In this document: positions 517-55,205 of the stretch, one piece after another
How positions within the stretch are numbered: position 1 is the stretch's first letter
Layout of the letters: each line of letters opens with the position of its first letter
DNA from: Parelaphostrongylus tenuis
Lineage: Eukaryota > Nematoda > Chromadorea > Rhabditida > Metastrongylidae
Assembly (NCBI GenBank): GCA_019055375.1
Contig: JAHQIW010003841.1
Span: forward strand, 62,001-126,000
Direction: 5' to 3'
DNA length: 64,000 nt
The notes under the pieces: generated by a model
What the model was told of the DNA's origin: nothing
The model's database searches: none
Seen by the model: only the letters and a program-made list of their open reading frames with translations
Position numbers and translations under genes: made by a program

Positions 517-839
517 CTGACTTCACAATAGACTTTCCACAGTGCTGGACGTCTGCAATAGGTTTTATTTAGCATATTGCTCTGAAAAGAAAGTTGAAGT
601 CGATTATTATGAGCAGTTGTTTGAAGGCAACGACGATAATAATTTTCTCGGATCGAAATTCCGTGAAATTTCTCACCGTCATAAGCCACCGTTAAAAAAG
701 GCCTAATATTTATTTGAGTATCTCTATCGATGCTAGATGAAGCCAAATGCCTGGCGCACCCTAACTTATGAGCTTCATACTTTATCTTTCTATAAGTATG
801 CAGCAGGATTTTTATTTCCAATCTTTCTTTGACACACAT
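517..839 (-). CDS. Candidate exon pair of an unidentified minus-strand gene
   Basis: A minus-strand frame is open across the interval. Within it, 517-581 is bounded by a strong acceptor (TTCTTTTCAG) and a CAG|GTAGAA donor and encodes 21 codons starting SNMLNKTYC. A second donor (TATGACG|GTGAGA) lies near 675, so the upstream part (EAHKLGCARHLASSS...) could be a separate exon with an intron of about 100 bp. Joining the two puts the downstream exon in another frame that stops at once, beside an AATAAA. The alternatives are therefore a terminal exon or two unrelated exons. I do not recognise the protein. No start codon or promoter is evident. Confidence 0.25.
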
Positions 840-10904: not shown

Positions 10905-11205
10905 CTCCCACGTTGATTGGTATATCACACCGCAAAAGTGACAAAGAAATGGTTGAGCGATGCTGGTTGGACCGTTTTTGAATACCCTCCATACAGTCCG
11001 GATTTAACTCCAAGCGACTATCATCTGTTTCGTTCAACGGAGCACCGGTTGCGCGACAGAAAGCTTGATACCGATATCCAATTCCATAATTTGGTCATTC
11101 ATTTCTTCAACAGAAAAATCGGGATTTCACGTTCGCGGAATCGGTTTTCTGCCGGAGAAGTGGCAAGAAGTGCTTGAAGTTGAAAGGGAGTACCTCGACT
11201 ATTAG
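10905..11205 (+). pseudogene. Mariner transposase C-terminal fragment
   Basis: The plus strand encodes HTAKVTKKWLSDAGWTVFEY, then YSPDLTPSDYHLF, the block with the third catalytic Asp of the mariner DD34D triad, here intact. A frameshift near 11140 moves the reading frame. The tail LPEKWQEVLEVEREYLDY then ends at TAG 11203-11205, which matches the normal C-terminus. The N-terminal two thirds of the gene, including the first two Asp residues, are missing. No inverted terminal repeats were located. Confidence 0.75.
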
Positions 11206-12640
11206 TTTTGCCTTTGTTCGGGTGTAATAGGTGTATAAATAAATGTTTTACACGCGGTGAAAGTGAAGGGGTGAAGATGCCCATCTTCGTTTGAACCCAA
11301 CAGCCATTCTTGGATAATCAATAACCTAATTTGCTCGTTTGCTAACTCCATTCTGAAACAAGTAGATAAACTATAAACCAGTCAGCGCGGGAGAAGACGG
11401 GCTTCGAATGAGCCCAGAACACAAAAAATGGCTCTCTCCCAAAAAAGTTATAAGCATTTTCTCTGAATTTTTTCCCCAGCCTATTACTCGACTGTCTAAG
11501 TCACTAGCCCCAAAAGACAGCTGATATAAATGACTGAGAAAAGAAGTTACAATGATATTAGTCGAGGTTGAAATGCGTCGCAGAGAGGTGATTAATCAGG
11601 AGGACTCGGTCAGCTGATGAAAGACGGTAGCTGGGTGAAAATGGTCTTATTCAAGTTATCTGAGATGTGGGAAGTGCAAGGTACATGAAAGCACGGTTGG
11701 CTTTGACTATAAGCAACTACGAGGGCGGGTAAAATCGGTGCGCTATGTCCATTATCAAGACAGCCACGATAAATTACTTATAACACAGATATAACGGATG
11801 AAATGTCAGCACACTCAGAACGAGAGAACAAAGCTTTATCTAGTAATTAATGAGGGCCTCAACTTATGAAGTACACGATTAGCCGAAAATTATTGAGAGT
11901 TACCGATGAAGTACGATCGCATGCAATGAGCTGCTTGCTCATCTGATATATATCATTCATTGTCTAATATTCAATTACTTTTATGAATTTTGCGCACTAT
12001 ATGCAATGAGAACACATACAAATTGAAAGATTTATGCTGACATTTGAAGTAGGCAGTGATGATATGATTGATTATTCGACTATTTATTCTTTTGTGGCCA
12101 TGAAAAAGATGATTCGTTGTTGTCATAAGAATTGAAAGATAAATATGATTGAAGTATGGATAAATATGAACAAGCCATATACATCTCGTTCTTCTCTTTG
12201 AGAGTATGGCTTAGAAAGAAACATTAAACCGCTTCACAGTCGAAATATTGAGCTCCGCAAAGGGATATATGAGCACGTCGACAAAACCGCGTTCTATCCC
12301 ACACCTACCTACAGATTTAAGATAGCAAATATTCTCTAAATTTGAGTCCAACTGGATTTTCCATCATTCTAGCCACATATTATGAGGGACATAACCATAA
12401 TTGAGAAGCAATATACCAAAGACACGAGAGGATTGAATACTTTTATTTGGTAGTATTGATCTCGAATGGTGTATGAATTCAGGATTTTGTGGTCAACTAT
12501 TGTGAAAAACGGAGGACAATGATCTATCCAACATGAGCACTATTTGTTTCAAATGAAGTAATTTATTAATATGCATATTAAATGAATAAATCTAGTGAAC
12601 GTAGACGGTCGGAAATCTTGCATACCACTGAGCATTTGCA
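11206..12640. other. No gene recognised
   Basis: AT-rich sequence with no supported exon, RNA or repeat. Confidence 0.4.
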
Positions 12641-14048: not shown

Positions 14049-16338
14049 ACAAGTACTTACAGATAATTTTATTAGGTAATCGATAGACATTAAGTCATAG
14101 TAACAAAATCGAGGTTGTCACAGTGCCGGCCGTCTTCAGTATGGCACACAGCCGTTGTGTTCGTATGAGCAGCAACTGCTTCGCGTACCAGATGTCCAGT
14201 GTTGTGTTGGTGGAAAATTCACAGCGCAATGAATGGTCTTAGGGAAAGACGTATTTCCCATGATAGCTGGCCAGTGTTGTGCTGGCAAACTATTTATAGG
14301 TTAATGCAAACAAGAATATTGGAAATCGTCACGGTCACAGAAGTGCCACTTGAGTATGGACGCCACTTGAAACTCGGCTGCGATTTCCACCTCTTTCAAG
14401 GAACCATGTTAATGCTTACTCCTGGAGCCATGCTTTGTCAAAGGTGAAGGATACTCAAGAACAATAAAATTTCGATCTGTTATTGAACATTTTTATGTTG
14501 TCTTGTCCATTTCGACTTATAATTCGATCATAATAAATTCAAATCTTTCATTTATTACGTAGACAACAGTTCACCTTCAAACACTACCGCAAATAAATAA
14601 ATAGTCAAATATTTATTTCGTCAATGAATGAAAATTAAGTATTACGACTTAAATCTTTCAGTTTATATTTCTCAATTCATATGATGTACAAAAGCCCTCA
14701 TAGTTAATGGTATACCTCTTACGGAACTGACTGGACGGAAAGGCACCGCGCACCGATGAGGTTGGGAAGCTGAAACACGTGTCTAGCACTTTATAAATAC
14801 TCCTAACAAACCTCCTGATAGTCAAAATATTCTCCCAAAAAGTGTCAACCTTAAGGTTTCATAATAATTCATTCAAAGTGTTAATATATCTTAATTATTT
14901 GTGTACCTTAGTGAGAAGGCTATTTACCGTTGAACACTTTGCCACTGGTCATGCTCACCGATTATATGGGCTCTCCGGATTACTTTCAGAATGAACGTCA
15001 ACAGCCAATTTTGTGCATCTCCTCTAGTTCTCACCTTCCAAATCGCCTCAAGGTGATCACTCTTAGGTGACTTCGGAGAGATAGGCGTATCGAAAACCTC
15101 ATGATCCGTTCACTGCTTCCGATGAGTGCTCTCGTCCACTGTCTACACAAACTAATGCAAACCTACTAGACGTAAAATCATGAGAAAGAACATTTCCAAA
15201 TAAGTCTTTTGAGTAAAAGGTTTATTCATGTCTACAAATAAACGGTAGGAAATCCGAATCAATCGTTCTGCAGGCAGTAGCGATGAGGAGGCCGGTAACG
15301 AAGTCGAAAACGTACTTTTAACCAGATGCTGGCTCTGGGTAGTGTCTCGGGCGACGACGAACAATATAGTACGAAAGATGTGTATTGATTAAAATTTTAA
15401 TTACTTTTGGTGAACAAATTTGGTGTTTATGCTCTAGTGCTAAGCTTATAGAACGGCCTAATATCATAAAAAACCTCACTTCTCTCAGTCGGGATAATCG
15501 TGCCCTAATGGAAGCATTTGCGCCACTCTACTTCCTCTCCAAATTACTCAGTCAGTTTAGCTGCTGCTTGCTGTCAGGGCAGTGGACCATCCACGATCCC
15601 ACACGTTATGTTCCAGTGAATGCTAATTGTTTCTCACACTTTTAGAAGAATTTTGTTTATTCAGGATTCAACAAAAACAATCAGATCGCGTGGAAGACCA
15701 AAGACGAGCGCTACGAAGCAGCTAAGTGATGGTTTAACTGGCTAGTCATAGTATTCTCTTGCTCGTACGATTTCAAACAACTATTTCCTTAATCAATGCT
15801 TAGTCAATTTTTCAGTAGGACTTCAACAGAACTGATCCAAAACTAGAACTTTTTTTAGAAAACTTCTTAAACATGTTTTAGCACTTTCACATTTTTCGAA
15901 CGATGTGCTGACTTTTAAATCTACTTCTTTTTATGGTAAGGATCGTCGTTAAGGTGAACTCCCGATAAAGGTATTCACGGACTCGAACATTCGATGTTCC
16001 AGAATATTCCCAGATCTCAGCATCTTTGCGATTGCCGTTCATAGTACTTTGAAAATTCATTCCATTGGAAAATAAACTTATTAGCGTCGCAGTGCGCTCA
16101 GAATTGAGGTAACGCCTCTTGTAGGTGGAAGTGATAAGGTGATCGCAACAGTTAATGGGCTCGTGGTATAGTTCTACCTCATTCGTACCGCCTCAGTCAT
16201 AGATGACTCACTCATTGTAGCGTCAGGCACAGCAGGCGATAAAGAGGAAATATAAGATTTTATTTGACTAACTGAGGTTCTGAGGGAACTTTATTGTCAT
16301 TGAATGATATAATATCACAAAAGGGGCCTTTTGAAGGA
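14049..16338. other. No gene recognised
   Basis: Low-complexity AT-rich blocks alternate with unremarkable sequence. Open frames at 14199-14447 and 15385-15645 have no splice or family support. A box A-like string (TCGTGGTATAGTT) near 16150 lacks a partner box B. Confidence 0.35.
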
Positions 16339-19300
16339 CTGTATCACCTGTTCTCCCGTTGATCATCAAAAGGCTGGAGCGGGCACCACCAACACTTCTA
16401 TTTTTTCCTATCGCGTACAAGAGTAGCCTAATGGGTCCTCCTCGCTCTAGGGATTCGCCGGGCATCACATCGTTTTTCTATACCTTTCGTGAAGAAGCCG
16501 ATCAACGGATCGATGGTCTTCCTGTGCATCTTGATGTTCCGAAGAATCCAGTCGGTAACGGCTCTTGCCCATCTGATGTCGTTCAAATGCATCACGTGTC
16601 TGGCCCACTGCATTTTGATATCCTGGCGTGTACAACAGCATCTTTAATCTTCGATCGCTTAGATCGTAGATCGGAACTACGGATCCTTTCTCTTATTTGC
16701 GAAACACGGGTACTCTTAGTACCGACCTTTCCAAATGATTGTTCATCCTTATTATGTAGGGACCAAGTTTCTGCTTCACACGTTAGGGCAGGGAAATCGT
16801 CGTGTCGAAAAGCTCGGCACGGAGTCGAACGTTTTTTGCCTTCTTTGCTACATCTTCGATGCTCTTAAACGTTCCCTTAGCCGCTCGTTTTCTCCTGCGC
16901 AACTCTAAACTTAGGTCGTTCATCATATTGATTTCACGACCTAGGTAGACATGACTCTTGCATTTGGAGATGTTCGTTTCGTTGAGTATGAATGGGTCAT
17001 TCAAAATCCATTCGTTCCTAATAAACATTGCTTTCGTTAGATTTAGTTAAAGACCAATCTTTCCACAGGCAATGTCGAAATCGATCAACATCCGTTCCGC
17101 TTGGCTGATGCTTGGTATTATCACGACGATTTCACCAGCAAAGCAAAGATGGTTTAATTGTCGGCAGTTATTTTCATTCCCATATCGCCTCATTCTAATG
17201 CTCGCATAGCGTTTTGGAGGTTGACAGTGAATAATTTTTGCGAAATTGTATCACTGTGTCCAACACCTCCTCTCACGCCGATGGTAATGTTGTTGTAGAA
17301 TGGCGATACTGTGGTCGTGAAGTTTTTATGCAGCTCACGAAGGGTCGTTATGTACTCATTAGGGATGCGCTGGCGAGCCTCTATAACGCCTCTAATTCCA
17401 CTGAATGTGTTCCATGATGCTAAATTCTTTTCAAAATCCTGCTTTTTCGCATGGATGACCTTTGTCCAGTGTTCTGTCAATCCTATTTATCAAGGCTCGA
17501 GTGAAGGGTTTATAGACAACGTACAACAAGCAGACTGGGCGATACTTGCCTATCTCGTGGAGGTCTCTCTTTTTGAAAAACAACACGGTCTTCCTGGTTT
17601 TCCATTGAATGGGTATCCCGCATTCTGGCAGACAGCGAGTGAAGAGCCGAGTCAGGGTGTTGATGAGAACTGGCTGTACGTTGCTCAGTGTCCTGATCTA
17701 ATCCTGTCTGGACCAGGTGATGCTCTATTCTTCACCGACGACATAGCATGTCGGATTTCGGAAGGGAAGACCGTTGAAACGACAGTTCATCCTATTTCAA
17801 ATCATATGACGGTAAGAGGACATGGCTATTAAAAAGACCCGAATAGTATCCACCGTCCGTCTGGAAACTGTAAGTGTCCCGTCAGGGCATCGCAGTACAA
17901 TCATCATGGTCTTACGATTGGCGAAACTTCACTGGGCTTTGCAAATGCCTTCCCAGCTTCTGCAGTTTCTGCCATAATTACTTCTTGTCTCTATTTGAGG
18001 TCTTATTTTATCGCTACTCTGCAGCGTTTACGAACTTTGGACGTATGGTTTGGATTGTCTGTAGCTCGCGCGATTCCACGTTGACGTATCTGCTGGAGTG
18101 TCTGCGGAGACAAGCGTGTATTCTTCACTTTAGGACTCTCGGCTTTCATAGCGCTAATGTGATGATATTTGATGAGCCAGTCGTATTCTTCGTCGATGTT
18201 GTCGGCAACGGTATCTTCTCAAGAGCTAACTAGTGATTTGAATACATCCCAATTTATGATGGTTCTTTGACTTCGTTGTTTGAATTTAGCGACTTCTTTG
18301 CTTTCCGCTAAAAACGGAACGTGGCGTGAAGGAGGCGATGGTCTGGTTTTGTGTAGAAGTCCATAATAACAACGACATTGGTCAGGCGGAGTCTTCGATT
18401 TACTAAGATGTGATCTATTTTGTTATGGTACTATCTATTGATACATTCCCACGTCCATCGTTGAGAGGGAGGATTTTGGAATTGTGAGTTAACATGGATG
18501 GTTTTAGTCGTCGTGATAAACTCAGATAGCCTCTCACCCTGTTCACTCCACTCTAGTGCGTGAGTCCTAATGTGACGTTCTTCAGACGTCGTTCTCGGTC
18601 CAATTTTCGCGTTGAAGTCTCCAGCAATGCTTGAAGGATGTTTGGTTTTCTCTGAAGATTTTTTCGAGGTACTCATAGAACGCTTCGACTTCGCCTTCGT
18701 CATAGCTTGGTGTTCGTACATAAGAAACGAAGATGGTCAAGCTGGAATTGAAACACATCTTTTCAACTGTAATCGTCTGATTCTGGCTGTTAGTTGTTCA
18801 AATGGATGTTCACAGTCAAATTCGATTCGACGAGGATGCCAGGGCTGCCGAGTAAACAAAGTGAGAAAGATGGAGTCCTCAGTCTCAGCCAAGCTATTGT
18901 CGTCGCACCGTACCCTTCTTGTTTCAATCAATAGATCTTCTGCAGCGGATAGGTGATGAAGTCTTCGTGCATTATAGGTACGGATTGCTATTTTAGTACA
19001 TTTTGATTTTGACAGCTTAGTTAGGTTTTGAGATTTCAGCAGGCTCTCCGTACCGTGATACCCGGCGCTGCCGCACCGCGAGCTCATTCGGTGTCAGGGA
19101 ATGAGGCTCATATTTTTGTTGTTTTTAACATATTGATACCCGACATATAGCTTGCCAGGCTTCAAACGTGGAGGCTGGTATTCACGAGTAGCTTGCCAGT
19201 CTCTCTCGGAAGAGTGGGAGGAGCTTATTTGTTGGAGGTGACTCCTAACCGCCTACAATGTACTTCTGAGCCGCTTGATTACAGGCGTTTGGCCAACTTG

Positions 19301-30504: not shown

Positions 30505-30550
30505 GTGTAAATTAGACTCTGACGAAGGCGTTGCCGTCGAAACGTTAACC
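30505..30550 (+). repeat. Dispersed hammerhead-like motif, best copy
   Basis: The string reads CTCTGACGAAGGC, GTT, GCC, then GTCGAAACGTTAACC. Related copies are at 3938-3975 (-), 4975-5003, 8625-8660 (-), 9142-9180, 35697-35729, 44655-44687 and 45950-45985. The GGC/GCC stem is conserved while its loop varies. It resembles a hammerhead core with an extra A before stem II, so self-cleavage is not claimed. Confidence 0.45.
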
Positions 30551-30885: not shown

Positions 30886-31400
30886 TTAAATAAGCATTGG
30901 ATCCGTAAACTACGTTATCCTAAACGTTTTGCCGTCTATACAACTCAGAGTGGGCGGATCGATAAATCTAAGGTTACCAATCGATACAAACTTATGCATT
31001 TTGTTAGGTATGTAGAAAGAAAAATGCTGTTAGTTCAATTTTCTGTTGCTAAACAACTGGAGGTATCAAATCTGTAGCACTTGTCCTTCAAAAACACTTC
31101 ACACGTCACAATCTTCGTAAGAGAATAAAAAACGAAGATATATTTCAATATATCCTTTCATTATTATTTGAGCCAGCTTGTCATGTGCTCTGGTAAGGGC
31201 TCTTGTACAGCCCGATACACGTGCTTCGTCCTTACAGTAATACCAATAAAATACCAGCAAATGAGCAATCGAGTGCACAACACTCTGGGTTAGGTGAAGG
31301 TTTCACTTGACATAGAGTGTAAAGCGTATCGTCGTCGATGACTCTGTCTAAGGAGTGTAAGGCTCCCGAGAGAAGTAACTATAAAAGATTGAAAGACGAC

Positions 31401-31467
31401 GGGTTCTGCACGACTGACGAGTCTGTAAGGACGAAACACGTGTATCGGGCTGTACAAGAGCCCCTAA
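31401..31467 (+). ncRNA. Type-I hammerhead ribozyme (HHR-1), complete
   Basis: In order: outer stem I GGGTTCT pairs with AGAGCCC; inner stem I GCACGA pairs with TCGGGC (one mismatch); conserved core CTGACGA (31414-31420); stem II GTCT/GGAC closed by a GTAA tetraloop; GAAA (31433-31436); stem III is the palindrome CACGTG; cleavage dinucleotide TA with predicted scission after 31444. The strand-exchange bulge TGTACA sits in stem I opposite loop II, as in natural fast-cleaving type-I ribozymes. Every invariant core base is present. Stem III has no loop, so cleavage would be expected in a dimer, as in other short-stem-III hammerheads. Confidence 0.8.
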
Positions 31468-31718
31468 CAGACCACATGACTAGTTGGCTCAAATAATAAT
31501 GAAAGGATATATTGAAATTTGAGCGTGGTCTTAACAAAGCACTCGAAATAAAGGTATAATATGATAAAAATACCAGCCAACGAGCAATCGAGTGCGAAAA
31601 CACTCTGTGTTAGGTGAAAATTTCGCTTGACGTAGAGTGTAAAACGTTCGTCTTCGATGACTCTCTGTAAAGGAGTAGAGCTTCCGAGAGAACTGACTAT
31701 AAAAATATTGAAAGACGA

Positions 31719-31778
31719 CGGGTTCTGCCCGACTGACGAGTCTGTAAGGACGAAACAATCGGGCTGTAGAAGAGCACT
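31719..31778 (+). ncRNA. Hammerhead relic (HHR-2), stem III deleted
   Basis: The same unit one repeat downstream. Inner stem I is perfect (GCCCGA with TCGGGC), the core CTGACGA (31733-31739) and stem II GTCT-GTAA-GGAC are intact, and GAAA is present. However, CACGTGTA is shortened to CAA, which removes stem III and the cleavage-site U. This copy should be unable to cleave. Confidence 0.7.
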
Positions 31779-31880
31779 TGTCAGACCAGATGACAAGATG
31801 ACTCAAATAAAAATGAAAGGAAAACGAAGAGATATTGGAAGATTTTAGCACATTTGAATGCGGTCCTAACGGAGTTTTGC

Positions 31881-37281: not shown

Positions 37282-37303
37282 TTTTTGAGCCGTTAGGTCT
37301 AAT

Positions 37304-37347
37304 GGCATACAGGCGCCTGTTTCGTCCCATTGGGGCTCATCGGTACC
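37304..37347 (-). ncRNA. Type-I hammerhead ribozyme (HHR-3), one core change
   Basis: On the minus strand: stem I GGTA (37347-37344) pairs with TGCC (37307-37304); core CCGATGA (37343-37337), which differs from the consensus by T-to-C at the second position; stem II GCCCC/GGGAC with one mismatch and loop AAT; GAAA (37323-37320); stem III is the 10-nt palindrome CAGGCGCCTG; then TA with predicted scission after 37308. The architecture is complete but the core change is expected to weaken or abolish cleavage. Confidence 0.65.
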
Positions 37348-37399
37348 ACCCTTCCCCGGTTCGGATAGGGATCGGGGATCGGCTGAAAAGAGTTAGAGT

Positions 37400-37440
37400 G
37401 GTACTGATGTGTCCCAAAAGGATGAAACAGGCTCCTATCC
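37400..37440 (+). ncRNA. Hammerhead relic (HHR-4)
   Basis: Plus-strand counterpart of HHR-3 in the right arm: stem I GGTA, core CTGATGT (last A changed to T), stem II GTCCC-AAA-AGGAT, GAAA, then CAGGCTCCTA with part of stem III lost. Here the second core position is the consensus T, so the two arms carry different lesions. Confidence 0.6.
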
Positions 37441-37466
37441 AAGACTAGACCTAATAGCTCAAAATA

Positions 37467-40400
37467 TATTCTAATCGATTATATCATTTTGAGCGGGTCT
37501 ATGAAAAAGCAGTCGACAGAGGAAATCTTTTGTGACATATATTTTTCAAAGTGCCAGAATTTTTTTTAGCCGCGCATTTTGAGCCAAAATGATTATATGG
37601 CTTACTGAAATTTGAGCATTGTCCTAATGAAGCACTCGAAAGGAAAGGTGTGATTTTTCAAAGTATTTTAAAAAAAACCGAAGTTATCCACTGTGTATTC
37701 CTATATGTTTTATCTACCCGTAATGGTATATAGCAGCTCTTTGAAATTCATTGCTATTGCTACTTGAATGATCCTCTGTTCGTCCACCTCCTAACAAGAA
37801 TTAGTATCATCCAGTTTCACTGTGATTACGCGCTAACATAGTAACCTACATTATATATACACATATATATACATATACATATGTATATATATATATATAT
37901 TCGGAGAATATCATGCCAACTTATCCTTCAAACTGTCCTCAACAAAAGGTATATTCATTTCTACTTCTCTCCCACCACATAGATTGATGGACGCAGCGAA
38001 AGACGTGATATGAATTGAACAGTGGAGACGTCGTTTCATGTATCACGTAATCACTCCGTTTTCTAAAAATTCTGGTACCATCAATAATCCTACTTTTGTC
38101 TTTGCAGATATCGATATTCTTGTCCGTTAATGCTGATGATCTGTAAAAAAATCATTCCTATCGTGGAATGATCATCAAACATGTTCAAATCGAAGCTTCT
38201 TTTATAGGAAACAAACTCAGAAAAACACCAGATTTTTGATTGTTTGCTTATATGCAGATTGGTTTTATTTGGTGTGCAAATGTAACGTGTTAGACGACTC
38301 ATAATCAGTTAGTAGCACATTCAATGGCGATGTTGCGATGGCGTCATCCTTGAAAGTTCGTCTTTTTGAAAATTCCTCACTTAATTCTTATTTTTAACTG
38401 AAGACTTATGATGTTTTAGAGTGTGCGTCTAAGAGAAATCGCTAACTATGATCACTACGCAGGCGCAGAAATGTTTCTATCCCAACTATTTGGCATCGCA
38501 TACGGCATTATTTTTGATAAGCGATTCGTTGTTTCCCGATTTTAAATCGCCATTGGCTTTTGTCTTGCTTGGAATGAGAGGATACCGACCTAAATGTACT
38601 CCAAGTAAGCTTTACATAATCTGCGCACCTTCGTTCGGATGTGGGAGCATTATGTGAGAGCTACAAATGTCACAGAGAACACAACGAGAAATTAGGTGCA
38701 ATCCACCTAGCAAGAAAGCCCAATTTAGATATTTTGAAAAGAGTAGTAACATTTCATCTTCCTCTCACACGGCCATTAGCTGCAGTTTATCTGATTTCTG
38801 CCTAACAAATTCTTTAGTAATCCTTATTTTTTTTCTTGCACGTCTCGGTCAACGTTCTTTTCCTGTAACGGACTCTCATCAAGGAGTACAGTGGGCACCA
38901 GTTGTCAGCGCAGGTGTATCCGCCGCCACATAGTATCTCGTCATGAGGTCCATCACAACACCATTGCCTTCCGCACCTTAGATGCTCGAATTAACTATTT
39001 GACATAAATCTTAGTACTCATGAGCACATCCAAAATATACTACACGGCCAATATATACAAATGAACAATGCCTGCACTCCTATGCAGTGCTCAGCTGCAA
39101 TATGGAATGTGCATTTCTTACTGCTTCCATCCCTTACAGTGTTCGACTAGCATATCTTTAAGGAAATTTGAATTCAACTTACTTTGTGAGCTTAATGCAG
39201 CGGCCAATCCAACAAAGTCCTTGTCTGGGAGGAACAGTTAGGCACACATAATATGCAAATGAAAGTTGCTATGCTGAAAGATGACATATGCAGTACTTAC
39301 TAGTTCTCCTGGAACGCTATTGCTCCTCCAAACGCAGAAATCTTCCGCAGTCTGTAAGTCGCCATTTTTTCCTCGTAAAGGTCAACTTTAAACAATTGGA
39401 AATAATTAGATGAGTGCCATAAATTTAGTTATAATGAGAGTTATTCAATTATTGGTATTGCATGCAACATGCATCAGGATTTTTGACGAACCGTTCATTG
39501 CTTTTTTTTTCCCCTTGTATGACATCTCTTGGGCTCTATATAAAATAAAAGAAGGTCAGGACTAAGACATATTGTAATATTCCTCGTACAGTTCACTACA
39601 AGTGATGGAACGTCAAATACAGCATGACTGCGTAGTAAACTAGTGTTTTCACAAAAGACATGTATGTGTATATATGTATGTATGTACATATATACACATC
39701 ACAGAGGAGATCAATTGCTCGTCTTTCCTATACAGTGACTTGTGTTCCAAATTCATTCATGGTGTGGGTACTACTACTATATTACACAAGTTTTGTAGGA
39801 GTTTGCAAATCCCTAAGTGACTTTGGTGACTCAGGAGCACGGCCTGAGCAGACCAGAGTCACGTGTGTATTGTAGACCGCATCGCACTGCTACACCTTTT
39901 CCTTGGGAAAACGTCGAGATGAATAAAGACCTTTTTGTGCTCACACTTTTCATCCGTTTCCATTGTAATCAAATAGAAAAATTACTCAACCCGAGGTTTA
40001 TCGTAATATCATTTTACATCTATTCGTTAGGGCGTTAGCAATACACATTTCTTCGGTTCATGGAAACACCAGAGCATCTGTGTATGAGACCTGTCGAATG
40101 GCATTTTTGAGCTGAGCGAAGTGGAGATCCACGGGCTCACTCATGTCTGAAAAGAAGTGTATCAGTGAGTACTTACCATTTCTACATTCTTTGTCGATAT
40201 ATTAGGACTAATCTAAGAAAAAAAAATAAGATTATAAGACGATTGATAGTAGAATATGCTCTCACTTGCAAATCTGAATTCAGATACCCTTATTTACGAA
40301 CTGCAATTAGCTGTAACATTTGTTTCTTAGAATCAGTCACCATGAACAAACGTAATCCTTGATATTGTAATTTCAATGGAGAGATCACGTACACTCTTGT

Positions 40401-41153: not shown

Positions 41154-41290
41154 TTTTATGAGATCTGCAGCGGTACATATACAGTACTAGACAGCTGGTG
41201 TTTCGCCCTTGCAGGCTCATCAGCAACTCGGTGCCTTTCGACTTAGTCGATCCGTCGCAGAGCGATAAACCACGAAATGTTACGCAACTT
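41154..41290 (-). repeat. Hammerhead-bearing repeat, copy at 41.2 kb
   Basis: The plus-strand blocks GAGCCTTTTATGAG, ACAGCTG, TTTCGCCCTTGCAGGCTCAT and CCTTTCG(A/G) are shared in order with 42366-42480. Spacing is conserved, so these are two copies of one element. Confidence 0.7.
41180..41232 (-). ncRNA. Type-I hammerhead ribozyme (HHR-5), intact core
   Basis: On the minus strand: core CTGATGA (41223-41217), stem II GCCT/GGGC with a GCAA tetraloop (41216-41205), GAAA (41204-41201), stem III CACCAGCTG with two outer base pairs, then TC, with predicted scission between 41190 and 41189. All invariant core bases are present. Stem I next to the core (GTTG with TAGT) relies on G-T pairs and is weaker than in the sister copy at 42.4 kb. 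Confidence 0.65.
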
Positions 41291-42365: not shown

Positions 42366-42650
42366 GAGCCTTTTATGAGGTCTGGTTCGACACATTTACA
42401 ATTTAGACAGCTGCTGTTTCGCCCTTGCAGGCTCATTAGTAAACTGGTACCTTTCGGTTTGGTCAATCCCTAGAATGGAGATATACCTGTACTTATGAAG
42501 GAATTAGCGACTTCGCCTTCGACGAAATAGGAACGACGAACCGACGAAGTAAGGTGTAAGCCCTTGCGAGGAATCGGTTGAAGCGAAAGGCATCATGCTA
42601 CTCATAGACTTAAAGAGGAAAACAGCAGCTGTTTAGTACTGTATAAGTAC
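42366..42650. repeat. Inverted pair of 41-kb-type hammerhead repeats
   Basis: Left copy 42366-42480 matches 41154-41290. A reversed, more decayed copy lies at about 42545-42650; it shares ACAGCAGCTGT, TAGTACTGTATA and GCCTTTCG blocks with the other two copies. No protein. Confidence 0.65.
42399..42446 (-). ncRNA. Type-I hammerhead ribozyme (HHR-6), one core change
   Basis: On the minus strand: stem I CAGTTTA (42446-42440) pairs over 7 bp with TAAATTG (42405-42399); core CTAATGA (42439-42433) has one change (G to A); stem II GCCT/GGGC with GCAA loop; GAAA (42420-42417); stem III CAG/CTG with loop CAG; then TC, with predicted scission between 42406 and 42405. The fold is complete and better paired than HHR-5, but the invariant G is lost, so it is probably inactive. 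Confidence 0.7.
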
Positions 42651-45272: not shown

Positions 45273-46379
45273 AGCTAAAAAGACTACAAAAATAAGGAAA
45301 AAAAACTGAAAGACGTTGTAGGCCAGCAATGACGATTATTCAAAAGCACTGCACGTATGCCCAAGGTTTCTTTGAAAAATACACAAAATTTGTAAGTCCA
45401 GAAAGAATTCATAGCACAGTACGAGAGCAACAATAGATACATTGAAAGAATCCGATTACTTACTTTACATCGCCCAATAAATTTTTCCCACTAGCCCGTC
45501 AAAAAGCGCATCAAACCTAATACATTCGAATGGAGCATCAATACCGACATACACCCGACTAAGCGCGCACAGGAGACATGCAATAATACAGAAGATTTCG
45601 ATGTAGAAGTAATCAGCGCAGCTTAGAAACGTAAAACCAAATCAAGCAGGACTATTGAGAATTTTTGAATTTATAACGAAAAAATTGAAAATGAAGGGGT
45701 GGAATGAGTCGCTGTCATCCCAAGGGCATCAGACCGCTTTCTGAACTTAAACCGGGTTTGGTACTCGCCCTTGTAAGACGAGGTACGGGAGGTCCGAAGC
45801 AGGACTAGAGAGCCATTAAGCACTTTTAAAATGGTGAACACTTGATAGAAGCTTATCAGTATGCGACTCAACATTTACGATGAATATCGTCCAATCTATT
45901 TATGAAAGTTTTCGGCGGAGAAATGCACGTCAGTTTCATTCGTCCGGGCCCTGAAAAAGGCAATCCCGTCAAAGCAGCGACTTCCACTGGACAGTTTGTG
46001 TCTGCCCATCACGAAGAACGGGTGCGAAACACCAGAAATCCCTCACTTATCTAAGATAGCCATGTTACTTCATTGTCGTTCGTTTCACATTATACCAGTG
46101 ACTTATTACAAGCGATATTCACCTCCCAATTCAGTTGATTTTCACTCTTCACTGGTAGTTAAGAATGCCACCTGTGTAGACGCAAGTTTGCTTCTCTTTC
46201 CAGTATTCAGATGACGTCTCCTTCAATAGACAGCAGCGGTGACGGACGTGGAGGAATCAACGACGTAGGTGAAATCTTAAATACAGGCCCTTTTTTCTCT
46301 ATATTAAGTCTCTGTTTCTTTGTACATATACTATACTATATACCTATTATATATATATATATATTATTATATATATATC
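45273..46379. other. No confident gene
   Basis: A minus-strand open segment near 45690-45870 (SSYKGEYQTRFKFRKRSDAL) has coding-like composition but no strong splice sites. A GAAGGC-type motif relic lies at 45950-45985. A TA tract begins near 46330. Confidence 0.3.
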
Positions 46380-46853
46380 CCTGCCCTAACGTATGCAGCA
46401 GAAAGCTGGTCGCTACGTAAGCAGGATGAAAGATCACTTGGAGTTATCGAACGCGCAGTCGAAAGGTCGATGCTAGGAGTATCCCGTATCTGGCAATTCT
46501 TAGAAAGTATCTCAAGTTCCGACATACGTCAACGATCGAAGATCACAGACGCCGTTCTACACGCTAGGATATCGAAAATAAGGTGGGCCGGACACGTGAT
46601 GCGCTTCAACGACAACCGATGGACGAGAGCCGTTACCGACTGGATTCCGCGGAACTCAAGCGCTCTAAAGGAAGACCACTGACCCGTTGGTCCGATTTCT
46701 TCACGAAAGCGATGGAAGGAAGATATGATGCTCAGCGAATCCCTAGAGCGAGGAGGACTCACTGGGCTACTCTTACACGCGATAGGGAAATATGGAAGAG
46801 TTGCTGGCACCCGCTCGAGTCACTCGACGATCAACAGCACGACAGGTGATACA
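46380..46853 (+). mobile_element. RTE-type retrotransposon C, 5'-truncated (C-terminal tail only)
   Basis: The copy starts inside the coding region at PALTYAAESWSLRKQDERSL and continues through VIERAVERSMLGVSR, KIRWAGHVMRFNDNRWTRAV and, after a frameshift near 46650, SKGRPLTRWSDFFTKAM and RIPRARRTHWATLTRDREIW to the stop and a GGTGATACAGGTGATA end. Severe 5' truncation is typical of incomplete target-primed reverse transcription. It is better preserved than element A, so it is younger. Both flanks are TA microsatellite. Minus-strand open frame 46529-46810 is a shadow. Confidence 0.85.
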
Positions 46854-50041: not shown

Positions 50042-50182
50042 CTATAGTACAGTATTCAGAGATCTAAGCTTCGAATGATTGCCAACATTCTTACGAAATA
50101 CCCAATAATGTGGAGTACTGGGCAAAAACGTTTGCGTCAGCCGGGATTCGATCCCAGATCTCACTGAATATATTGGGTATCA

Positions 50183-50572
50183 ATAACCAATTGAAATCCG
50201 TTTATTTGACCTCCTCTTGCGGTATTATGGGCTTACAATATATCCAATAATGTGGAGTGCTGTGTAAAAACGTTTGCGTCAGCCGGCATTCGCACCCAGA
50301 GCTCACTCTGTCAACATGAGTAAGTTCAATGGTGGTAGCAGTTGCCCCGCCAGACCGTCGACGGTTGGCTGTTGACAAATAAGGCATTGTCACGTAAAAA
50401 GAGTGGGGTGCAAAACGAGCGTCGATGATGCAACGGTTAGCATACGCTCCCGGAAAGAATGGGATCTGGGTTCGAATCCCGGCTGACGCAAACGTTTTGC
50501 ACAGCACTCCACATTGTCGGGTATATTCTAAGACCATAACATCGCAAGAGGCGGCCAAATAAATGAATTTCA
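50183..50572. repeat. Foldback element around a tRNA-like unit
   Basis: Arms 50183-50320 and 50430-50572 are reverse complements (blocks CCTCTTGCG, AATGTGGAGTGCTGTG, CGTTTGCGTCAGCCGG). A third, shorter copy of the inner block lies at 50100-50172 in the left-arm orientation. The right arm contains most of the tRNA-like unit; the left arms carry only its 3' half. The open frame 50202-50573 (minus) is a product of this palindrome. Confidence 0.75.
50419..50489 (+). ncRNA. tRNA-like cloverleaf (tRNA-derived, probably not functional)
   Basis: 71 nt fold into a cloverleaf: acceptor GCGTCG with the GACGC side, D-arm ATGC/GCAT, anticodon arm CGCTC/GAATG with one mismatch and loop CCGGAAA (GGA at the anticodon position), T-arm CTGGG/CCCGG with TTCGAAT. 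Box B GGTTCGAATCC is perfect. GGA would read serine codons, but serine tRNAs need a long variable arm, absent here. It lies in a repeat with partial copies alongside, so I read it as a tRNA-derived repeat head. Confidence 0.6.
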
Positions 50573-50592
50573 ATTCTTACAAAATGTTCTTG

Positions 50593-54924: not shown

Positions 54925-55205
54925 CCGCTAAAGTAGTAGTAGTAGCATTGGTATTAGTATTAGTAGTAGTAGTAGTACTAATAGCATTGGTATTAGTAGT
55001 AGTAGTAGTAGTAGTAGCATTGGTATTCATAGTAGTAGTAGTAATAGTACTAGTAGTAGTAGTAGTAGTAGTAGCATTGGTATTAGTAGTAGTGGTAGTA
55101 GTAGCAATGGTATTAGTATTAGTATTAGTAGTAGTAGCAGTAGCATTGGTATTAGTAATAATATTAGTATTGGTATTAGTATTAGTATGAGTATTAGTAT
55201 TAGTT
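54925..55205. repeat. TAG trinucleotide microsatellite
   Basis: An imperfect (TAG)n array of about 280 bp with GCATTGGTATTAG interruptions recurring within it. An open frame (54882-55190) encoding only Val, Leu and Ala repeats is produced by the array and is not a gene. Confidence 0.9.

Follow-up and report, generated by a model that had tools for sequence, protein, structure and literature searches.

We conclude, with a probability of roughly 0.8, that the hammerhead motif in the DNA above lies within a single inserted retroelement, non-autonomous and of the metazoan retrozyme type, whose RNA would be cleaved by hammerhead dimers and which probably entered the genome by Penelope-like two-sided priming. 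The window, i.e. the whole stretch of 64,000 nucleotides that was analysed, corresponds to positions 62001-126000 of contig C2512 in the searched Parelaphostrongylus tenuis genome (481.5 Mb, 5105 contigs). Retrozymes are already known as a kind of element; what is new is this family, with an insertion signature resembling that of Penelope-like elements (PLEs).

A type I hammerhead within a 682-bp insertion

In strand order, the motif reads GGGTTCT GCACGA, CTGACGA, GTCT-GTAA-GGAC, GAA, ACAC-GTGT, A31444 and, beyond the predicted cut, TCGGGC TGTACA AGAGCCC (Table 1). An earlier note on this DNA had described it as a complete type I hammerhead ribozyme, and this description is borne out for the core, the GAAA and all three stems. 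Stem II is GTCT/GGAC with a GTAA loop, as proposed. Stem I indeed consists of two helices and a bulge: the outer helix is paired in all seven positions (as read off the sequence), the bulge is the 6-nt TGTACA, and the inner helix forms five of six pairs, with one A.G mismatch that the earlier note did not record. Stem III is palindromic and loopless, and amounts to ACAC/GUGU once the pair A15.1-U16.1 is counted. The conserved core, CUGANGA ... GAAA with a nucleotide other than G at position H17, is found both here and in the related loci elsewhere in the genome.

Since hairpin closure of an 8-nt stem III is limited to two pairs, the active form of this type of hammerhead should be a dimer, in which two hammerheads are joined by a shared 8-bp stem III. 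That such hammerheads cleave as dimers had been put forward as a known trait, and passages in three papers describe it as such (PMC6155905, PMC3088659, PMC7761336). Given that the octamer ACACGTGT recurs in 37 of the 46 hammerhead-like motifs of the loci fetched from the genome, the loopless palindromic stem III is a trait of the family.

The hammerhead sits inside a 682-bp insertion, 31139-31820, which the earlier note had not described and which is composed of an inverted copy, a 319-bp unit and a second unit, in this order. Its boundaries follow from the 10-mer AAAACGAAGA, which abuts the insertion on either side and has no other occurrence in the window; in a random control, 1 of about 5000 pairs of 26-mers shared 10 bases. 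The inverted arms, 31142-31237 and 31423-31518, are 94% complementary, and the first 3 bases of the inverted copy are assigned by the repeat boundary alone. An extension of unit 2 past 31830 was discarded, as the likeness to unit 1 is weak there (30 of 2000 shuffles as good).

The hammerhead of unit 2 has lost its stem III through a 5-nt deletion, CGTGT, and judging from this sequence it is probably inactive. A dimer formed within this locus alone can therefore not make stem III as the family does. The mismatch in stem I and this broken neighbour also make it doubtful that the copy at 31401-31463 itself cleaves; relatives with full stems exist in the genome, as found by a motif scan of the fetched loci.

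Eight hammerhead copies can be aligned within the window, at 14.7, 31.4, 31.7, 37.3 (-), 37.4, 41.2 (-), 42.4 (-) and 42.6 kb, and local searches add a ninth piece, the inverted partial copy at 31.1-31.2 kb. Head-to-head pairs are likewise present at 37 and 42 kb. Stem III of the better copies reads ACACGTGT, ACAGCAGCTGT or ACAGGCGCCTGT, all self-complementary or nearly so; the latter two are longer and could, by their sequence, also close as four-pair hairpins, so that a monomer may suffice there. One further candidate, 30519-30543 (+) with the sequence CTGACGAAGGCGTTGCCGTCGAAAC, passes the bare core pattern, but the first pair of its stem II would be A-C; its fold is ordinary, it looks like a different repeat motif, and we rejected it as a hammerhead.

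Table 1. The insertion, its hammerheads and diverged relatives, in window coordinates
Feature	Position	Strand	Remarks
Candidate target site duplication, left, AAAACGAAGA	31129..31138		10-mer only at 31129 and 31821 within the window
Inverted truncated unit copy, head-to-head with unit 1	31139..31237	-	starts within hammerhead stem II; stem III GCACGTGT
Unit 1, 319 bp	31238..31556	+	84% identity to unit 2; relatives genome-wide
Type I hammerhead ribozyme, unit 1	31401..31463	+	core intact; predicted scission between 31444 and 31445
Palindromic stem III without loop, ACACGTGT	31436..31443	+	also in 37/46 genome motifs
Predicted monomer RNA, from cleavage at both hammerheads, 314 nt	31445..31758	+	cuts at 31444 and 31758
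Hairpin region GGCTCAAAT...ATTTGAGC	31486..31524	+	loop contains terminus A, ..AATGAAAGG, ending at 31506
Terminus B, ..AAATAAAGGT	31545..31555	+	ends at 31555; based on the ends of L004, L009, L015, L024, L027 and L028
Unit 2	31557..31820	+	84% identical to unit 1; ends at terminus A (..AATGAAAGG)
Unit 2 hammerhead (31733)	31720..31777	+	core and stem II intact, inner stem I perfect
Candidate target site duplication, right, AAAACGAAGA	31821..31830		exact repeat of the left copy
Diverged hammerhead relative	14745..14791	+	U4 to C; stem I decayed; stem III ACACGTGT
Diverged hammerhead relative, inverted arm of head-to-head pair	37300..37351	-	U4 to C; stem III ACAGGCGCCTGT
Diverged hammerhead relative, direct arm	37396..37447	+	A9 to U; stems I and III decayed
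3' part of another unit, diverged; no hammerhead	37575..37663	+	
Diverged hammerhead relative	41182..41231	-	core intact; stem II GCCT/GGGC
Diverged hammerhead relative	42398..42447	-	G5 to A; stem III ACAGCAGCTGT
Diverged hammerhead relative, core decayed	42593..42641	+	head-to-head with 42398-42447

The window also holds other repetitive sequences. The segments 14552-14714 and 11968-12131 share an inverted similarity of 62% over 166 bp and apparently represent another dispersed repeat, and 54932-55204 is a long array of AGTAGT-type repeats, with frames open on both strands. Pfam was applied to 20 of the window's open frames of at least 80 aa. It gave a trace of DDE_3 at 10917-11174 (+) (20 bits, cut-off 28.6), which looks mariner-like by eye, and two other weak matches (E 0.012 and 0.087). 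Two sets of short frames, at 16786-19093 (-) and 46308-46846 (+), had no Pfam match at E 0.001; we take them to resemble nematode RTE-type non-LTR reverse transcriptases.

Comparative evidence for the ribozyme and its predicted RNA

The earlier note had named an Rfam match above threshold as a check, and none was obtained: at relaxed thresholds, RF00163 gave 23.9 bits for the unit 1 hammerhead (cut-off 34; E 0.015 in 4 kb) and RF00008 gave 27.1 bits for the second copy, in unit 2 (cut-off 48.5; E 0.0094), both below the gathering cut-off. RNA folding, the other computational check, answered in two ways. Stems I and II form in the second copy. For the copy at 31401, single-strand folds choose another structure in both of two stretches tried, and so does a further calculation, in which the hammerhead, stem III left out, has -13.1 kcal/mol and the minimum -19.4.

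Such sub-threshold scores would speak for a chance resemblance to a hammerhead; the case against chance is made by controls and by comparison. A descriptor combining core, stems and cut site, composed after the motif had been seen, finds two sites in the window (31414 + and 41223 -), compared with three in 300 dinucleotide shuffles, or 0.01 per shuffled window. Furthermore, we examined covariation in the eight divergent window copies, excised around the motif by hand. Standard pairs make up 86.1%, against 71.7% (sd 2.8) in shuffled and 27-44% in slid alignments. The covariation score is 0.497 against 0.251 in shuffles, and there are 17 doubly changed cells, compared with 7.2; none of 500 shuffles reached the one or the other. 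Pairs with a double change number 8 against 5.2, a value reached by 21 of the 500. Counted by stem, pairing is retained in 37 of 48 cases for stem I (P 0.006) and in 30 of 32 for stem II (P 0.004), while stem III alone, with 26 of 28, is not above shuffling (P 0.14); stem I is poor in two of the eight copies, p14 (1/6 pairs) and p37 (3/6). Three helices with an open stem I, and covariation between their strands, hold for the structure as a whole. A covariance model built from the eight copies recovers the same eight, as expected by construction, and finds no further match in the window below E 0.09. It is this comparative evidence that settles the reality of the hammerhead, despite the Rfam scores and the rival fold; together with the shuffles and the 46 motifs in 30 genomic loci, it leaves a chance match with a negligible probability, and we reject it.

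Outside the genome, the IMG/VR contig IMGVR_UViG_3300013125_000012 (L001) contains an identical 24-nt hammerhead core at 552-575 (-), with a longer stem III and an RF00163 score of 23.2 bits (cut-off 34). A link between this contig and the element was discarded, as no other match was seen and the contig reads like a GC-rich phage stretch; its core is probably independent of the window family. An exact scan of a collection of genome contigs gave no match.

Cleavage at both hammerheads of the insertion would release a monomer of 314 nt (Table 1), which folds with -95.5 kcal/mol (z -5.5 against 100 shuffles). Compared with 628 other windows of the same DNA and corrected for GC content, it ranks 9th of 629, as eight windows do as well, some of them inverted repeats. 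The fetched loci provide 29 distinct monomers, from cleavage site to cleavage site, of 315-322 nt; 27 of them surpass every one of their 60 shuffles in folding, one loses to three and one to a single shuffle. In an alignment of 30 monomers, 97.1% of the consensus pairs are kept against 96.5% in shuffles (maximum of 200: 96.9%). Double changes in this close family (89% identity) affect 2 pairs against 2.1 in shuffles, which is no excess, and doubly changed cells number 11 against 5.8. Pairs between the two 5' halves, broken in 4 of 48 cases against 7.8 expected (P 0.035), said little.

The strongest fold of the window is formed by 50089-50575, which contains a tRNA-Ser (GGA)-like gene (50419-50490) next to the arms of long inverted repeats. 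Overlapping its 3' part, 39 nt recur inverted at 50125-50163, and the region is possibly a tRNA-derived mobile element.

Genomic relatives and the ends of their insertions

A genome-wide search yielded 80 matches, from 40 scored of 6715 first-look candidates. The best 30 of these 80 were studied as loci, of which 24 are distinct once six overlapping or 98-100% duplicates are removed: L003 duplicates L002 (99.6% over 3.6 kb), L005 overlaps L004, L016 overlaps L015, and L021, L026 and L029 are 98-99% copies of L017. The members of these two duplicate groups (L002/L003 and L017/L021/L026/L029) lie on separate contigs and are 98-99.6% identical over 3.5 kb; from their sequences, they seem to be uncollapsed haplotypes or recent duplications in the assembly.

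The fetched loci consist of roughly 2-3.5 tandem units of ~320 bp each and are spread over many contigs. In a loose scan of all 30, we found 46 distinct hammerhead-like motifs, a count in which near-duplicate loci are unmerged and at least three motifs look like chance; H17 is A in 27 and C in 19. By a strict rule (CTGANGA, GAAA, four pairs in stem II, at least three in stem III, at least 5/6 in the inner stem I, H17 not G), 38 of the 46 are complete, a proportion that overstates intactness because only the best-scoring copies are included and motifs with decayed cores escape the loose scan.

With matches at most 80 bp apart merged into one insertion, repeats of at least 10 bp (10-13 bp) are found at the boundaries of 12 of the 24 distinct loci (L002, L004, L011, L013, L015, L018, L019, L023, L024, L025, L027 and L028). 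No end repeat of this length was found at the other 12, among which L009 has one of 9 bp. In a random control, unmatched in composition and with two overlapping pairs set aside, such repeats occurred in 3 of 2998 window pairs. The family is dispersed, and its target duplications, where present, exceed 4 bp. In 14 of the 24 loci (L002, L004, L007, L008, L009, L012, L013, L014, L017, L020, L023, L024, L025 and L030), an inverted copy lies upstream in head-to-head orientation, and in none tail-to-tail. The longer sense was taken as direct; in L013, both are about equal in length.

The 3' ends of these insertions fall into zones rather than on single points. By alignment, 12 of the 24 right ends lie at unit positions 268-284 (zone A), 10 at 317-319 (zone B) and two (L014, L020) outside both. 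The outer ends of the 14 inverted copies behave likewise, with 6 at 267-284 and 8 at 309-319, and the left (5') ends of the 10 direct-only loci are spread over positions 9 to 270. Where repeats fix the ends exactly, six loci fall into zone A: L002 and L011 end precisely on ..AATGAAAGG, L018, L023 and L013 (which reads AAAGA) 4-6 nt beyond it, and L025 a few nt before. Six others fall into zone B, with L009 ending precisely on ..ATAAAGGT and L004, L015, L024, L027 and L028 2-5 nt beyond; the inverted sides reach up to about 15 nt past the same terminus words. Zone B coincides with the end of the 319-bp query, and L006, L008, L012 and L019 are placed there by alignment only; L019, whose repeat word occurs three times, is excluded from the exact set.

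Comparing both ends of the 14 head-to-head loci, we find different zones in 10 (L004, L007, L009, L012, L013, L017, L023, L024, L025, L030) and the same zone in two (L002, L008), with L014 and L020 unassignable; an independent choice of the two termini is not borne out by these 12 assignable loci. The outer ends on either side usually lie close to one of two AAAGG sites, which makes Penelope-like two-sided priming probable. As far as sequences can tell, the ends and the order of the copies fit a model in which both ends of the target are primed and reverse transcription begins close to one or the other 3' site. At the exact ends of the fetched loci, the 5' ends of the insertions do not coincide with the hammerhead cleavage site, and hence the ribozyme cut does not set the end of the cDNA.

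The units might also be regarded as a satellite-like tandem repeat with a fossil hammerhead, spread by unequal exchange or rolling-circle DNA without any RNA stage, which would agree with their tandem arrangement and with the broken hammerheads of unit 2 and several window copies. However, the arrays are short and scattered over many contigs, repeats of 10-13 bp are found at their ends, their 5' ends vary while their 3' ends favour two zones, and 38 of 46 motifs in the best-scoring loci are complete. Short arrays, end repeats, variable 5' ends and preferred 3' zones are the marks of reverse transcription, and we consider a satellite origin improbable.

Proposed mechanism and comparison with known systems

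For the retrozyme-type element that we favour, the following course of events may be proposed. Tandem copies would be transcribed into an RNA of ~320-nt units, in which two type I hammerheads would pair through their self-complementary stem III (ACACGUGU) and cut after position 17 (A or C). This would free a compact, highly self-paired RNA of ~320 nt with half a hammerhead at either end, which, by analogy with studied retrozymes, could be ligated into a circle. A reverse transcriptase supplied by another element would then copy the RNA, starting near one of the two AAAGG-ending sites, and the cDNA would be linked to a target whose two strands are opened about 10-13 bp apart. In many cases, priming would take place at both target ends, each time on an RNA 3' terminus, and the two cDNAs would meet head to head, with inverted copy, unit and unit as the resulting order.

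As candidates for the source of the enzyme that moves animal retrozymes, two papers of 2020 name PLEs, on the grounds that they occur in the same genomes as retrozymes and that both carry type I hammerheads (PMC7229834, PMC7761336, in the passages on this subject). Tentatively, and at somewhat less than even odds, we suggest that the genomic copies of retrozymes record the insertion process itself, with both ends of the break primed on an RNA 3' terminus, as in PLEs, at two alternative AAAGG termini. If true, two-end priming would link metazoan retrozymes with the PLE-type machinery structurally, and no longer only through their occurrence in the same genomes. With its dispersed copies, complete dimer-type ribozymes, end repeats and head-to-head order, the family makes this link testable by sequence analysis and biochemistry.

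Two-sided priming is our own proposal. Bdelloid rotifer PLE insertions are described as two direct pseudo-LTRs (pLTRs) with an adjacent inverted one, mostly head-to-head; the examples presented have target duplications of 8-10 bp, palindromes occur at the junction, and solo pLTRs are found as well (parts of PMC3846280). The authors attribute the head-to-head arrangement to self-priming on an antisense template, which is the published alternative. For the lizard PLE PAc, by comparison, reverse transcription is reported to start inside an RNA stem loop, and both target strands are cleaved and extended (PMC11167929, in the sections on PAc).

These likenesses raise another possibility, namely that the units are pLTRs of a PLE without the coding region, and that an autonomous PLE shares their ends. 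Since the retrozyme may descend from such pLTRs, this overlaps with our preferred explanation and does not exclude it. The pLTRs of PLEs bear tandem minimal type I hammerheads that may cleave as dimers (PMC7761336, in its account of PLEs), and the head-to-head order and 10-13 bp repeats found here match the rotifer insertions and PAc priming as described above. However, full units abut, with at most about 15 unaligned bases between them in the locus clusters, no reverse transcriptase frame is seen in or beside them, Pfam finds no PLE domain in the 20 window frames (eight of them at 29-32 kb), and a four-pair stem III together with a stem I bulge facing a GNRA-like loop II is nearer to the canonical than to the minimal form. 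We regard this origin as unlikely, albeit well ahead of a satellite.

Among described ribozymes, Rfam RF00163 (Hammerhead_1) shares the core and stem II with the present motif, and its consensus stem III is likewise loopless; it differs in that the stem I bulge and outer helix found here are fitted by the model as a 5-nt insertion. The two-hammerhead form sharing stem III has been described for newt and viroid hammerheads (a passage of PMC6155905).

Metazoan retrozymes are characterized as low-GC sequences of ~170-400 nt, arranged as dimers to multimers with type I hammerheads, which in amphibians act as dimers (retrozyme sections of PMC7229834). The family described here shares with these non-LTR retrozymes its tandem units of ~320 nt, non-coding as far as seen, with a type I hammerhead in each (315-322 nt between cleavage sites), short multimers, a compact monomer, end repeats longer than 4 bp and a GC content of 42% (0.421, below the 45-50% mark). 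For most invertebrate hammerheads, a stable helix III has been described (PMC7761336, in the part on these ribozymes); by contrast, the loopless 4+4 palindromic stem III brings ours nearer to the dimeric amphibian type, and the family provides a natural set of such hammerheads outside amphibians. The head-to-head copy (14 of 24 loci) and the two AAAGG zones are not met in these retrozyme sections of PMC7229834. The phyla listed there are cnidarians, molluscs, chordates, rotifers, platyhelminths, annelids, crustaceans and insects, 'among others', and words beginning with nematod- do not occur in it; judging by their titles, none of the open-licence papers found on the subject reports a natural nematode hammerhead or retrozyme.

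Compared with PLEs, finally, the units abut without a coding region, and neither a reverse transcriptase nor a GIY-YIG frame is seen near the locus. In addition, stem III is longer (4+4 nt) than in the minimal PLE hammerhead, which, in the wording published, 'usually' lacks non-conserved helix III nucleotides; these are present here. What the family does share with PLEs, as far as the published accounts cited describe them, is the combination of direct pLTR-like repeats with a head-to-head inverted copy, which 14 of the 24 loci have, duplications of the target site of about 10 bp (about 8-10 bp in PLEs), a short stem III and an internal initiation of reverse transcription near the 3' end.
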